Shown here: piece after piece, positions 1-4,561 of the stretch
Layout of the letters: the number at the start of each line of letters is the position of its first letter
How positions within the stretch are numbered: the first letter of the stretch is position 1
Origin: Methanococcus maripaludis C5
GTDB lineage: Archaea > AGJL01 > Methanococci > Methanococcales > Methanococcaceae
Reading direction: 5' to 3'
Assembly: GCF_000016125.1 (NCBI RefSeq)
Contig: NC_009135.1
Location: 1,426,001-1,490,000 of the forward strand
DNA length: 64,000 nucleotides
The notes under the pieces: model-generated
The model's database searches: none
What the model saw: only the letters and a program-made list of their open reading frames with translations
What the model was told of the DNA's origin: nothing
Program-made: the position numbers and the translations under genes

Positions 1-604
1 TAAAGGTTTTCTTTGACTTGTTGAAATCTATGTATTTAAGATTCAATACTTCCGATTTTCGACAGCCCGTTTCCCAAAGGGTTTCTATTGCGATAAGATC
101 CCTAATGCGTGAAAAATTAGATGAACCTGCATATGGGTCTTCTTTTTTATAATCAATTTTTTCGAATAATTTATCCCTAATTAAATCATACTCATCTGGA
201 GTAATTTTACTATAATGTATTTCAGGTAAGTTTGAATATCTCCTTGTTTTCCTACTATCAAGTTGGTATTCAAAAAGATTTTTGTACCCCTGAATATAAT
301 AGAATGTTGAGAGCATATGAAGATATTTCTTTCGAGTCTTTACGCCGCAGTTTCTTTGCTTATCTAAGTATTTGAAAAAGGCTTTAAATTCTCGTTTCGT
401 GAAGTCTTGTGGGTGCAGATTGTTGTTTTGGCAGAACATTAAAAACACCCCGAGACTTGCTAAATTGTCTCTTATTGTAGAGATTTGCTTATTATCTTCA
501 TCCCTTGCCTCCTCATACTCAACTAAATATTTTTTAAATTCAGGACATAATTCATTTTCTTTGTTATTTGTTTTTAATACTCTCAACTTTTTTAAAATCG
601 ACAT
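1..604 (-). CDS. Tyrosine site-specific recombinase, partial (C-terminus beyond window)
   Basis: From an ATG at 604 the minus strand stays open for 201 codons to the window edge, so the protein is incomplete. Residues 20-115 look like the helical core-binding (SAM-like) domain of XerC/D-type recombinases. The stretch TLWETGCRKSEVLNL contains Arg182, the first catalytic arginine box. The remaining Lys, HxxR, His and Tyr boxes would lie left of base 1. A GAGG site is about 10 bases before the ATG. It shares the accessory segment with a complete integrase at 3275-4207, but the two are not obviously related in sequence. Whether it is an element integrase, a resolvase or a Xer-like enzyme cannot be told from this part. 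Confidence 0.8.
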   Translation of the reverse strand, partial: MSILKKLRVLKTNNKENELCPEFKKYLVEYEEARDEDNKQISTIRDNLASLGVFLMFCQNNNLHPQDFTKREFKAFFKYLDKQRNCGVKTRKKYLHMLSTFYYIQGYKNLFEYQLDSRKTRRYSNLPEIHYSKITPDEYDLIRDKLFEKIDYKKEDPYAGSSNFSRIRDLIAIETLWETGCRKSEVLNLKYIDFNKSKKTF

Positions 605-941: not shown

Positions 942-1769
942 TTAATAAACATCTTTTAGTAATCTACCATCCATTGTTTTCCAAACCAGCCACCCGCTTA
1001 TATTTTGTCCTTTGACAATACATGCAGCTGAACTTGGTGAATTGAATGCATAATCCTCGGTGAATATGTAAGAATTGCCACCCAAATTTTTTAAAATCCC
1101 TGAATCTACAAGCACTTTTTTCAGTAGGCTATTATGTAGTGACATGCTTGATGACTCATCATATCTAGCATTTGAATTTTTTAATACTGTGAATTTTCCG
1201 TTTTGATATTTTCCGTATGCAACCTCGTTCCCAATACTACATTGGAAAATGGGATCGCTCGAATCTTCAGTTTTTTCAAAACTCGTAAAACCCAGGGTTG
1301 ATAGATATCCTTCAATATCGGGAATTACCCTTTCAAGTGTAATTTTCCCATATTCGAGATCCGTATTCTGACTCGTATTTTTATTCCTAACCCGGCAATT
1401 TGATAAGTTTGCTTTTAAAATGAACCTCGTTTCAAGATATTTTATAAATGCTTTGTTGAAATAATTTTTTAAAGAGACTATGCATATGCACGAATTCCAA
1501 TCGAAATTGTCCGTATGCTCAGTTATTCTCTTTAAAACATTTTCAGATTCTCCAATGTATATTTCAGGTCGTTCAAGTTCATCAGAATCCCCAATTAAGA
1601 AGTATATTCCCATTCCTTCGAGATTTGATGTTTCAGGAATATCTTTTAAATTTTTAATACCTGCCCTCAATACATGAATCGCTTGAAGGGTTGAATCTAA
1701 ATAGTCGCATATTTTTACATTTTGCATGATTTTCATGTGAAGTTCACGTGGGTTTTGTATATTTTGCAT
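942..1769 (-). CDS. GIY-YIG nuclease-family protein with C-terminal DUF4357 domain
   Basis: The 275-residue product has a GIY-YIG nuclease core: G54-I-Y, then Y71-I-G with Arg81 in VLKRITEH, and a later YLETR (Glu113) that fits the metal-binding glutamate. The last ~70 residues, with the pattern Y-F-x-FNSPSSAACIVKG and GWLVWKTMDG, match the DUF4357 domain that often follows GIY-YIG in bacteria and archaea. A GAGGT site lies 7 bases before the ATG. The gene is divergent from the winged-helix regulator at 2038, with shared operator-like repeats between them. Function is probably DNA cleavage in a mobile or defence context; the target is unknown. The protein lies in the accessory segment beside two recombinases. 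Confidence 0.85.
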   Translation of the reverse strand: MQNIQNPRELHMKIMQNVKICDYLDSTLQAIHVLRAGIKNLKDIPETSNLEGMGIYFLIGDSDELERPEIYIGESENVLKRITEHTDNFDWNSCICIVSLKNYFNKAFIKYLETRFILKANLSNCRVRNKNTSQNTDLEYGKITLERVIPDIEGYLSTLGFTSFEKTEDSSDPIFQCSIGNEVAYGKYQNGKFTVLKNSNARYDESSSMSLHNSLLKKVLVDSGILKNLGGNSYIFTEDYAFNSPSSAACIVKGQNISGWLVWKTMDGRLLKDVY

Positions 1770-2037: not shown

Positions 2038-2325
2038 ATGGAAACGATAAAAGCACTTAATCGAAGCAAATCTGTTGAAATTTTAGAAACTCTTAAAAAA
2101 TCAGGGAAACTTCATTTTAATCAGATTGTAAAAGACATCGATGCAAACACATCCACCGCTTCAAGGGCACTAAATGACCTATTAGAATCTCATTTGGTGA
2201 ATAGAATTGAAGAAGGGTCGAAAAGAACAGATAAGGTTTATTACGAAATAACTGAAAAAGGTGTTGATGTTCTGAATGTAATATACGACTTGATAAAAAT
2301 TGATGAAAAATATTCTAAAAAATAA
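2038..2325 (+). CDS. Small winged-helix transcriptional regulator
   Basis: A 95-residue basic protein. Residues 10-75 have the pattern of an ArsR/HxlR-type winged helix: SVEILETLKKSGKLHFNQI, then the recognition helix STASRALNDLLESHLV, and a charged wing followed by YYEITEKGVDVL. The start is set by AGGAGAT three bases before the ATG. Three similar ~22-bp repeats lie upstream, the last one directly over the expected transcription start, which fits autorepression. No effector-binding domain is present, so the signal is unknown. Likely partner or target is the divergent GIY-YIG gene. Confidence 0.75.
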   Translation: METIKALNRSKSVEILETLKKSGKLHFNQIVKDIDANTSTASRALNDLLESHLVNRIEEGSKRTDKVYYEITEKGVDVLNVIYDLIKIDEKYSKK

Positions 2326-2803
2326 CTTATTTTACGATTTTCAAAAATTATTTCATTTTTTTAAATAATTGTTAAAATCCATTTATTTTTTTTGCATTTT
2401 TTTATTGAATTTTAAATTTTTAATACGTAAATTTAACTTTTTTTCTGAAATTAGATCTTGGAAAGGCTAGCTTGATATATATACTATATAAGTGATAGAA
2501 AAATTTGTAAAAACTTTGTAGGTGATCTCAAATGAGAAATGAAGAATCAATATTTGATATTTTAACAATCTTGAGTTTAATAACTGGAGATTTGTTGTAT
2601 GGGTTAACAATTGGATCTGAAATAAAAATATAGCATATGAAAATGTGTTTCGTGAAAACAATGAAATGGAGGTGAATTTAGTTTGAAAAATAGATTATCA
2701 ATAGATGGTTAAATATAGAAAAAAATGGAGGCATTGTAATTTTTAAATTAACAATCAAAAGTAACTTTAAAAAACAAAATACTAACTAATATTAAAATTA
2801 GCC
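2326..2803. other. Gene-poor AT-rich stretch with several orphan ribosome sites
   Basis: Very AT-rich DNA with no normal-sized ORF. It contains a TATA-like tract (about 2474-2490), then GGTGAT before the short ORF at 2532, then GGAGGTGAA near 2670 before a TTG that opens only 9 codons, then another GGAGG near 2726 without a usable start. The run of ribosome sites with immediately broken frames looks like decayed gene starts. Nothing recognisable is encoded. Confidence 0.4.
2532..2633 (+). CDS. Possible 33-residue peptide
   Basis: ATG at 2532 with a GGTGAT ribosome site six bases upstream and a TATA-like element about 50 bases upstream. The 33-residue product begins MRNEESIFDILTILSLITGD and is acidic then hydrophobic. 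It has no family I recognise and could be the broken N-terminus of a larger lost gene. Codon use is not informative at this length. Confidence 0.25.
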   Translation: MRNEESIFDILTILSLITGDLLYGLTIGSEIKI

Positions 2804-2822
2804 CTTGTTGGCGCAAGTTTTT
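2804..2822 (+). terminator. Weak hairpin plus T-run
   Basis: CTTG and CAAG arms around a six-base loop are followed directly by TTTTT. The stem is only 4 bp, so a terminator role is tentative. It lies just left of the GC-rich stem-loop array. Confidence 0.25.
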
Positions 2823-2928
2823 CAAAACATGCTTGATTTTGAGACTTATTCTTTTAGCCTGCCCGTTATAGGGATTGTGGCCTATCTGGACTGAACTAAC
2901 TTAACTTAAAATATTATTGTGTCGATTG

Positions 2929-3240
2929 TCGGCATTAACGGAAGAAAAACGAGTGTAGCGAAGCGTAACGAGTTTTTATTACGGTTAATGCCGAAGAGGT
3001 AACGGATCCCCGGAGTGATCCTGGCCCGATCCTAATATGGCGGCCGCTATTGCGGCCGCCTTTAGAAAAAATTATTAGAGGTTTTTTTATGAAATTATAT
3101 TATCACGAAAGCTACCGCTTTCTTAAAACATATGGTTGCTATCGCAGCAAATGGATAATGTGTCAGCTACGCTGCCACGGTTTAGAAAGGGTCGTCAGAG
3201 CTACGCTCTTCCTCCTGCCCTACGGGCACAAGGCTTCGCC
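2929..3240 (+). repeat. Array of eight stem-loops, GC-rich, upstream of integrase
   Basis: In about 310 bases there are: an 11-bp perfect stem (2929-2939 with 2984-2994) enclosing a nested AAAAAC/GTTTTT stem (2945-2950 with 2972-2977); GGATC/GATCC (3004-3021); a 9-bp all-GC stem GGCGGCCGC/GCGGCCGCC with loop TATT (3039-3060); GAAAGC/GCTTTC (3107-3122); TTGCT/AGCAA (3136-3150); CAGC-TAC-GCTG (3164-3174); AGAGC-TAC-GCTCT (3197-3209); TGCCC-TAC-GGGCA (3216-3228). A minimal GGC-TTC-GCC (3232-3240) follows. Three hairpins share a TAC loop with different stems, so structure rather than sequence is repeated. GC content is far above the surroundings. The reading frame of the integrase happens to stay open through the part after 3050, but this part does not look like protein-coding sequence. 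Confidence 0.8.
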
Positions 3241-3274
3241 AAACTTATATTTTTTACAGTTAAGGGAAATTTTA

Positions 3275-4207
3275 ATGGCTAGAAATAGAATAAGATCACT
3301 GAAAGAGCAATTCAAATATGCGATCGTTGACCGTTCGTTTAAAGAAGGTGTCGACAAACATTCGCTTAAAAAAGATGCTGAAAACGATAATTCGTGGAGA
3401 ATTTATTCATATTCCGAAAAAAATAACCTTATGGACTTGTCAGCGAGTTTTTGTAAATTTTTAAATAAAAATCATGCCGAGATTAAGCAAATAAAAGATA
3501 TTAACGAATTACATGTTCAAGAATTTTTAAATTTTAAAGCCTCGGCATGTACTACTGAAACACTTTATAACTACAGAACTAGATTTATAAAAATTTCAAA
3601 GTGTGTAAACCATGCATTTCAATCCTGTTCACTACGGGTTTCAGATGTGGTGATTCCTCTTTCGAAAGTCGGAAAATCAAAAAGGAACCTCATGATGACA
3701 GAAGAACATGCAGAACTTTTGCTAAATTACTGTAAAAATAGTGACTCACAAGCTGCGATCGGGGTTAGATTCGCATTAGCGTTTGGTTTACGGGTTTCGG
3801 AAGTTACGAAACTAATGGGTAAAGATATTGATTTGGATAATTTAAAACTGCACATTCATAAATCAAAAGGTGGGAGAAGCAGAAATATTCCAATTCCAAA
3901 AGAACTGGTTCCATTTTTATCGAATGTTAAAAATGAATTTGGCGAAAATCAGCGAATTTGCCCCTTGCGGAATGATTCAGTCAACAGATTTGTATATCGG
4001 GTTTTTAAGTTTTACAGAATAAATGACTACAAAGATGCAAAAACGTCCATTCATGCAATACGTAAACTATGGGCGCAGAAGCTGTATGATAAACTTCGAA
4101 ATGAGGGAAAAACAATAAAAGAAGCCTGTGAGGAAGTATCTGTACAACTCGGTCACGGAAAAGATAGAAAAGATGTTTTTAATAGATATATATCGAATAT
4201 CTGGTGA
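3275..4207 (+). CDS. Tyrosine recombinase / integrase of the element
   Basis: Complete 310-residue integrase when started at the ATG at 3275, which follows AAGGGA. Catalytic boxes are all present: Arg173 in GLRVSEV, Lys198 in KGGRSR, His260 and Arg263 in HAIRKLWAQ, His294 in QLGHG, and nucleophile Tyr305 near the C-terminus in FNRYI. The form with HAIRKLWAQKLYD and a G after the LGH resembles the Integrase_1 type seen in integrative elements. An in-frame extension to an ATG at 3089 (behind GAGG) or further left exists, but it would translate the stem-loop array and is unlikely. The gene points at tRNA-Leu(UAA), 270 bases away, the classic arrangement for tRNA-targeting integrases. Confidence 0.9.
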   Translation: MARNRIRSLKEQFKYAIVDRSFKEGVDKHSLKKDAENDNSWRIYSYSEKNNLMDLSASFCKFLNKNHAEIKQIKDINELHVQEFLNFKASACTTETLYNYRTRFIKISKCVNHAFQSCSLRVSDVVIPLSKVGKSKRNLMMTEEHAELLLNYCKNSDSQAAIGVRFALAFGLRVSEVTKLMGKDIDLDNLKLHIHKSKGGRSRNIPIPKELVPFLSNVKNEFGENQRICPLRNDSVNRFVYRVFKFYRINDYKDAKTSIHAIRKLWAQKLYDKLRNEGKTIKEACEEVSVQLGHGKDRKDVFNRYISNIW

Positions 4208-4258
4208 TTAAAATTTTGAAAGATACATTAATTTTTTTTAAATAATATTTAATCGAAA

Positions 4259-4426
4259 AGTCCGACATACTGAAAAAATACGACACGTTTGAGCTTAGTT
4301 TTAGAATATCGGACTTAGTCCGATGCATATCCCACCGCAATTTTTAGGTACGACAGCATAATTTTCAAAAAATAAATATCAAAAACGACGGATCATCGAG
4401 ATAAAGACATGAAATACCAGTCCGAT
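4259..4426. repeat. Repeated octamer AGTCCGAY, putative integrase binding sites
   Basis: AGTCCGAC or AGTCCGAT occurs at 4259-4266, 4317-4324 and 4419-4426, and its complement at 4308-4315 makes the near-perfect palindrome ATCGGACTTAGTCCGAT (4308-4324). The same octamer is in the anticodon arm of the adjacent tRNA-Leu (4526-4533, with ATCGGA at 4515-4520) and, inverted, at 675-682 near the other recombinase. Spacing between integrase stop and tRNA fits an attachment-site region with core and arm sites. Binding is inferred. Confidence 0.45.
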
Positions 4427-4476
4427 AATAACTATATCAAAAAAGACGTTCGTTTTGAAGTTGATTTTAAAAAAAG

Positions 4477-4561
4477 TGGAGGGAAAGGGATTTGAACCCT
4501 CGAACCGCTACCGGATCGGATCTTAAGTCCGACGCCTTTGACCAGGCTTGGCAATCCCTCC
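4477..4561 (-). tRNA. tRNA-Leu (UAA)
   Basis: An 85-nt cloverleaf folds on the minus strand. The acceptor stem is GGAGGGA with TCCCTCC and discriminator A, the D arm is GCC/GGC, and the anticodon arm is TCGGA-CTTAAGA-TCCGA with anticodon TAA. A long variable arm CCG-GTAG-CGG marks a class II tRNA, and the T arm is GAGGG-TTCAAAT-CCCTT. CCA is not encoded. Its 3' end faces the integrase, so it is the likely insertion target of the accessory segment on its left. Confidence 0.95.

Follow-up and report, generated by a model that had tools for sequence, protein, structure and literature searches.

The window, a stretch of 64,000 nucleotides of the Methanococcus maripaludis C5 genome (NC_009135.1, positions 1,426,001 to 1,490,000), carries near its left end a cluster of stem-loops upstream of a gene of the tyrosine-recombinase (TR) family. 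The features of this region are listed below by window position, with the strand where one is assigned; copy 2 denotes a second Methanococcus copy described further on.

1..604, minus strand: XerA/XerD-like second integrase, 341 aa, cut by the left end of the window (the same gene as L004:10580-11605)
942..1769, minus strand: DUF4357 / GIY-YIG-like protein, from a domain search
2038..2325, plus strand: 95-aa winged-helix HTH protein, encoded upstream of the leader; missing from copy 2, where homology starts at 2458
2475..2491, plus strand: TATA-like sequence TATATATACTATATAA, a possible leader promoter judging from its sequence; copy-2 homology begins at 2458
2532..2633, plus strand: 33-aa small ORF at the leader's 5′ end, perhaps coding; also in copy 2, at only 75% DNA identity
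2929-2939/2984-2994, plus strand: long hairpin (LIR), 11-bp stem, TCGGCATTAAC...GTTAATGCCGA; conserved alongside genes of the recombinase family; proposed cognate or oriT-like site
3004-3008/3017-3021: hairpin GGATC-CCCGGAGT-GATCC, 5 bp, read directly from the sequence; identical in copy 2
3039-3060: GC hairpin GGCGGCCGC-TATT-GCGGCCGCC, nine GC pairs, loop TATT; identical in copy 2
3107..3240: array of six mini-hairpins, with loops C-T(N)NC-G on the plus strand, equal to C-G(N)NA-G on the minus strand; class kept and sequence changed in copy 2. Its members, from the stem search, are the next six entries
3107-3122: mini-hairpin, 6 bp, loop TACC
3135-3148: mini-hairpin, 5 bp including one G.T pair, loop TATC
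3160-3178: mini-hairpin, 7 bp around one mismatch, loop TAC
3197-3209: mini-hairpin, 5 bp, loop TAC
3216-3228: mini-hairpin, 5 bp, loop TAC
3232-3240: mini-hairpin, 3 bp, loop TTC
3275..4207, plus strand: tyrosine-recombinase-family protein, 310 aa (PF00589, E 1.3e-12), proposed to be a TR-like relaxase or a hairpin-site recombinase
4471..4527: att repeat, the 57-bp 3′ part of tRNA-Leu(UAA) from the anticodon loop; its twin (C1:1423745-1423801) is 6.7 kb upstream, beyond the window's left end

The two copies of the 57-bp repeat are 100% identical and flank an element of about 6.7-6.8 kb, which contains MazE/F-like genes, the XerA/XerD-like integrase, the DUF4357/GIY-YIG-like protein, the winged-helix protein, the hairpin leader and the 310-aa recombinase gene. 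Judged by these ends, the hairpin module is carried on a small element integrated at tRNA-Leu(UAA). The presence of two tyrosine recombinases within one small element needs explaining; an XerA/XerD-type integrase is also aboard, and the 310-aa enzyme therefore need not be the integrase of the element. In another genome of Methanococcus the same tRNA carries a relative that retains only a truncated gene. The MazE/MazF-like pair (L004:9180-9783) adjoins the left att inside the element, to the left of the window, and another Methanococcus genome has a near-identical pair at this tRNA (L014:6300-6903). The stretch 4208-4470, from the recombinase gene to the tRNA-Leu att, holds GTCCGAT/ATCGGACT repeats that resemble integrase arm sites, and similar GTCCGAT-type repeats occur in copy 2 and in L014. 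A second element (L003:5964-12436) is bounded on one side by a tRNA-Leu fragment; its opposite end has a 398-aa integrase close to tRNA-Ser(GCT), and a search for a tRNA-Ser repeat found none.

A preliminary description of the window had reported eight inverted repeats in series upstream of an integrase-type gene, three of them with the loop TAC in differing stems and one with a stem of nine GC pairs. A direct stem search bore this out: eight to nine stem-loops lie within 2929-3240, the TAC loops at 3160-3178, 3197-3209 and 3216-3228, the nine GC pairs at 3039-3060, and the TR-family gene follows at 3275-4207. When folded, the stretch 2900-3270 scored better than all 100 dinucleotide shuffles, both as RNA (z -4.27) and with DNA parameters (z -4.78). 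The cluster also has relatives: the genome (1,780,761 + 8,285 bp) contains one further copy, copy 2 (C1:1125241-1125589), which is 95% identical and likewise precedes a TR gene, and the same first hairpin occurs on gut plasmids and in Clostridia. The hairpin cluster is genuine, conserved across domains and no artefact, and it is a composite of more than one feature. The hairpins of the reported series are thus real but are not equivalent sites, since a single conserved hairpin comes first and an array confined to this lineage comes after it.

Homology between the two Methanococcus loci runs from 2458 to 4528 of the window and takes in the leader (with its 33-aa ORF), the hairpin cluster, the recombinase gene and the tRNA-Leu fragment. 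Their identity is mosaic along its length, which suggests gene conversion; because the copies look gene-converted, their likeness alone is no proof of selection. No DNA homologs of the cluster were found in plasmid and phage collections, a DNA search of 21 other genomes of the family gave only one 35-bp chance-like match, exact-pattern scans of viral contigs found nothing, and the remainder of the 64 kb shows no recurrence of such hairpins. The link to plasmid pURB500 suggested in the preliminary description was not borne out, as there was no BLAST match and no hairpin of the same class on the 8,285-bp contig. Several other candidates were rejected. A conserved protein frame through 3089-3274, the alternative that had been set against a structural role, fails in copy 2, where it stops after 21 codons and contains an indel. 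An intrinsic terminator is ruled out for the 2929-2994 hairpin, which has no T run after its stem, a T-tract 3′ of it being absent in the window and in L016, L017, L023 and L031. A known structured RNA family is rejected too, since at the gathering threshold the Rfam 15 models matched only tRNA, with weak sub-threshold matches otherwise.

The same arm motif as in the first hairpin precedes homologous recombinases at 20 loci, both Methanococcus copies counted, and 18 of the 20 have the ATTAA core; counted as independent loci these are 19, of which 17 have the core. L040 and L065 contain the hairpin and lack the exact ATTAA core. The hairpin recurs before a homologous TR gene in about 15 plasmids or genomes of Clostridia, where nearly all homologs with available upstream sequence carry such a hairpin, and it also precedes the TR gene on two two-gene rolling-circle plasmids, pRGI00546 and pRGI00782, which we take to be plasmids of the rat-gut metamobilome series. 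The arms on these plasmids (GGGCATTAACGC...GCGTTAATGCTC and TGCATTAACGG...TGTTAATGCA, respectively) match those of the window, and arms that are altered yet paired are found among the 20 loci (GGTATTAACG/CGTTAATACC, GGATTAAC/GTTAATCC, TAATTAACC/GGTTAATTA and CCATTAAG/CTTAATGG). The stem has a constant box, ATTAA(C)/(G)TTAAT, whose flanking pairs covary, and the loop is highly variable in length, with the ATTAA boxes standing about 10 to more than 45 bp apart.

Compensatory changes, named in the preliminary description as a check on its reading, are present in this hairpin. In an alignment of the arms of 15 distinct members (fifteen rows), which were recognised partly by the ATTAA box and the complementarity of its flanks, so that the box is constant by ascertainment and the pairing is partly so, 98.0% of cells were paired compared to 78.2% after shuffling, and the covariation score was 0.495 compared to 0.091, a value reached in 0/500 shuffles. 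Both sides had changed in 26 cells, slid-register controls were 22-45% paired, and the outer three pairs alone were paired in 50/51 cases (shuffled mean 29.5, maximum 43 in 10,000). Covariation of the arms would also result from a protein dimer binding a palindrome; this is probably not the sole cause, because the inner stems differ yet pair and the loop varies widely. For instance, the inner stems of L038 and L056 show a compensating G-C to A-T double change, in which the sequence differs and the pairing is kept.

The best-hairpin score averaged 15.2 in the family, compared to 8.1 +/- 1.3 for the sequences before 51 other window genes and 7-12 for those of other tyrosine recombinases, with one distant homolog at 15.6. 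The sense strand was more stable than the antisense strand in 12/19 loci, tied in 7/19 and never clearly worse, and one extra unpaired base was favoured in the 3′ arm in 8/17, and in the 5′ arm once (L061, ambiguous). About 20-45 nt separate the end of the hairpin from the start codon in many relatives, and the leaders upstream fold strongly and share little sequence outside the hairpin.

The 170 bp that follow the first hairpin are a Methanococcus-specific mini-hairpin array, which in the Methanococcus copies stands, together with the GGATC and 9-bp GC hairpins, between the first hairpin and the gene. Its loops are C-TAC-G, C-TACC-G, C-TATC-G and C-TTC-G, which read on the minus strand as GNA or GNNA closed by C-G. 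With a mini-hairpin defined by a stem of at least 4 and a loop of 3-4, four were observed in 3100-3245, compared to a shuffled mean of 0.79 (15/2000 shuffles reach 4). The C-TNC-G class accounts for 4/4 of these strict mini-hairpins in the array and 5/5 in copy 2, compared to 3.4% of the 206 in the whole 64 kb. The class is kept in copy 2 through changes of both stem and loop, AGAGC-TAC-GCTCT becoming AGGC-TATC-GCCT and the loop of TGCCC-TAC-GGGCA becoming TTAC. DNA hairpins with GNA-type loops such as d(GCGAAGC) are unusually stable, and the array is like them in that its minus-strand loops are all C-GNA-G or C-GNNA-G, and unlike them in being a tandem series before a recombinase gene. We read the array as a mark of selection for a folded minus strand, and less surely for RNA structure.

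The 310-aa protein has the catalytic set R173-K198-H260-R263-H294-Y305, which is invariant in the Methanococcus copies, and R173, K198 and Y305 are invariant in a wider alignment. Its profile aligns with XerA over 54-264, and a SAM-like domain gives a weak match in L016 (E 8e-4), so the protein appears to retain an N-terminal core-binding region. IntI4 is its second-best solved relative by profile; an AlphaFold model from the single sequence had a pLDDT of 39. By tblastn, a full-length homolog (34% identity, E 8e-43) is encoded on the circular 3.6-kb pRGI00546 and another on the 2.9-kb pRGI00782, where, apart from rolling-circle Rep genes (Rep_1; Rep_OBD), there are no further large or annotated ORFs. 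In viral contigs no integrase relatives were found with the first two queries, and four weak partial ones with query A3.

In a maximum-likelihood tree the Methanococcus proteins lie inside a clade of gut-plasmid and clostridial proteins (support 84/88), and the proteins of the archaeal plasmids pFS01 and pMETOK01 lie outside it. Given this nesting, the module crossed between bacteria and archaea, in one direction or the other. In L050 (G679:C2) and L059/L066 (G1014:C45) there are two module copies per contig, 14.5 and 17.2 kb apart; L050 looks like a head-to-tail plasmid dimer, with tetracycline-resistance-like genes also aboard. The N-terminal half of the homolog in L030 (G040:C49) is fused in frame to an apparent C-terminal part of a serine recombinase. 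The plasmids pFS01 and pMETOK01 have in common a structured leader (L018:4300-4940 and L019:4300-5000; TAGCTCCGATGA..., ...GGGGACTG...), which precedes the more distantly related integrase of each plasmid; this leader had no Rfam match, and Rfam found CRISPR repeats on pFS01. In plasmids of Pantoea and Klebsiella (L068 and L069) and of Brevibacillus (L070), strong hairpins of 14 to 26 bp stand just 5′ of genes for tyrosine recombinases or 'Integrase domain-containing' (PF12834/PF12835) proteins, possibly further relatives of the same arrangement.

The preliminary description had left the function between an attC-like site, a replication or transfer origin, and a structured RNA; a transfer origin and a folded site fit the present data best, and strict attC membership fails. 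Among the functional readings a transfer origin is the most likely, an attC-type site is its main rival, and an RNA leader and then a plasmid-resolution site follow. We put at about even the chance that the hairpin at 2929-2994 would be the cognate, strand-specific oriT-like site of the 310-aa TR on the tRNA-Leu(UAA) element. The hairpin is probably the DNA signal through which the recombinase moves the element, perhaps as the start of transfer to other cells. A single strand of 2929-2994, preferably the sense strand, would fold into a stem that contains the constant ATTAA(C)/(G)TTAAT box, and the TR encoded at 3275-4207 would bind and nick the folded box, with strand-specific processing as the outcome, like that of the oriT/TR-like-relaxase pairs MobK-pIGRK, TcpM-pCW3 and MpsA-SGI1. 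The array would be active when one of the strands has become single-stranded, for instance in minus-strand priming or as a structural signal, or it may alternatively be a structured RNA like the sgm-sRNA of SGI1.

The oriT-like reading draws on the recurrence of the hairpin before this gene family and on its covariation, high score and strand asymmetry. On small plasmids, mob usually occupies the second-gene slot beside Rep, and the gene on the gut plasmids sits in this slot, as in pIGRK, which argues for an oriT-like site. A 14.5-kb clostridial plasmid with the module points the same way, as it encodes a serine resolvase and, in the scan of its proteins, showed no conventional relaxase. Against this reading stand the tRNA-Leu att beside the 310-aa gene, as expected of an integrase, the apparent core-binding region in the protein, and the arm covariation, which also fits a dimer on a palindrome. 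The TraG/TraD C-terminal family had no match in the host genome, and transfer would therefore need a helper. An AGCGA-motif link to pIGRK was rejected (10 compared to 8.5 expected, not significant), and the leader motif ACGAGC is slightly enriched.

Folded single strands also serve in recombination, the precedents being integron attC and the folded attP of CTX phage, and the TR could recombine the hairpin as single-stranded DNA so as to integrate or exchange DNA, with no start of transfer. We regard this as unlikely, although the hairpin recalls attC in its conserved AAC/GTT box, its variable terminal loop, the extra unpaired base in one arm and its strand preference, and IntI4 ranks second among the solved relatives by profile. 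However, the element ends at tRNA-Leu and not at the hairpin, and there is a single site per element with no cassettes. Strict attC membership is rejected for want of the boxes RYYYAAC/GTTRRRY, of cassettes and of an integron integrase: CATTAAC/GTTAATG agrees with the boxes at 5/7 positions, AAC is AAA or AAG in four members, and the integron-integrase model TIGR02249 gave 39.2 bits against a cut-off of 265.

The hairpins may instead act in the transcript 5′ of the recombinase gene, controlling translation or serving as an sRNA. The position of the hairpin before the start codon in many relatives makes its presence in the mRNA likely, the sense side has G.T pairs, the upstream leaders fold strongly, and the SGI1 sRNA is a precedent (PMC9299015). 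Nevertheless, no Rfam family matches, the leaders have little common sequence outside the hairpin, the array loops, taken on the opposite strand, match stable DNA loops, and the constant ATTAA box suits recognition by a protein; a leader RNA or sRNA is accordingly a doubtful account, ranked below the folded recombination site.

A site used as a duplex, for multimer resolution or as the integration core of the recombinase, in the manner of cre/lox or TnpI-IRS, is improbable. A single inverted repeat adjoining a plasmid recombinase gene would suit it, and dyad binding likewise yields matching arms. Duplex TR core sites such as lox and dif have a fixed 6-8 bp spacer between the inverted arms, in contrast to the variable spacing of the ATTAA boxes, the inner stems vary yet stay self-complementary, as in the L038/L056 double change, and a serine resolvase is already present on one of these plasmids. 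That the hairpins are incidental and share no function, the two copies being kept alike by recent gene conversion, would agree with their mosaic identity and is highly improbable for 2929-2994, which is conserved with covariation across bacteria and archaea.

More broadly, and at somewhat less than an even chance, the oriT-like reading would point to an undescribed TR-like family that acts on one folded strand through an ATTAA-box hairpin and that, having spread on small gut-bacterial plasmids, was carried into methanogenic archaea; it would be an archaeal mobilization module of the TR-like-relaxase type, with the core-binding domain retained, unlike the known ones. If so, a new family would join the very small set of recombinase-derived relaxases, the ATTAA-box hairpin with its gene would be a searchable signature for plasmids now typed 'non-mobilizable', and a route of DNA exchange between gut bacteria and methanogens would become testable. 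If the enzyme instead recombines the hairpin, folded-strand recombination would have a further system besides those of integrons and Xer-using phages.

To our knowledge, three recombinase-derived relaxases have been characterized, MobK (pIGRK), TcpM (pCW3) and MpsA (SGI1). In all three systems an inverted-repeat-rich oriT lies directly upstream of the gene or adjoins it (PMC8152469, PMC6137059, PMC6414798). The present locus parallels them in its order of leader, strand-biased hairpin, structured stretch and TR gene, in the two-gene plasmids and in the separate integrase of the element. The 310-aa protein has the tyrosine-recombinase catalytic residues with the nucleophilic tyrosine, and an inverted-repeat-rich upstream region is present, by position and structure, at about 19 loci; MobK, TcpM and MpsA are without the N-terminal core-binding (SAM-like) region (PMC8152469), which the 310-aa protein appears to have. 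We claim that it may work like a TR-like relaxase, not that it is one, because the core-binding region seems to be kept and no TraG-type coupling protein was found in the host.

The pCW3 system resembles the present locus in its 150-bp oriT upstream of the TR-like relaxase gene and in the wHTH gene upstream of oriT, with TcpK as a further component (PMC6137059); the window also has an upstream wHTH gene, but the second Methanococcus copy is without one, and unlike pCW3 the host element here is without conjugation genes. SGI1, with its oriT, sgm-sRNA and MpsA/MpsB, is likewise an integrative element with a separate integrase and a GC-rich, multi-inverted-repeat oriT near a TR-family gene (PMC6414798), and an essential sRNA is encoded between its oriT and mpsA (PMC9299015), as an RNA-coding stretch would be here. 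It differs in being bacterial and in having its core-binding-like part as a separate protein, MpsB, and the likeness is one of layout. MobK is smaller than the 310-aa protein and lacks the core-binding domain, and its nicking is demonstrated whereas that of the present enzyme is predicted. Its likeness, by layout and with no common oriT motif demonstrated, lies in a two-gene rolling-circle plasmid of Klebsiella that encodes a TR-family protein and has an inverted-repeat-rich noncoding region directly 5′ of the gene (PMC8152469).
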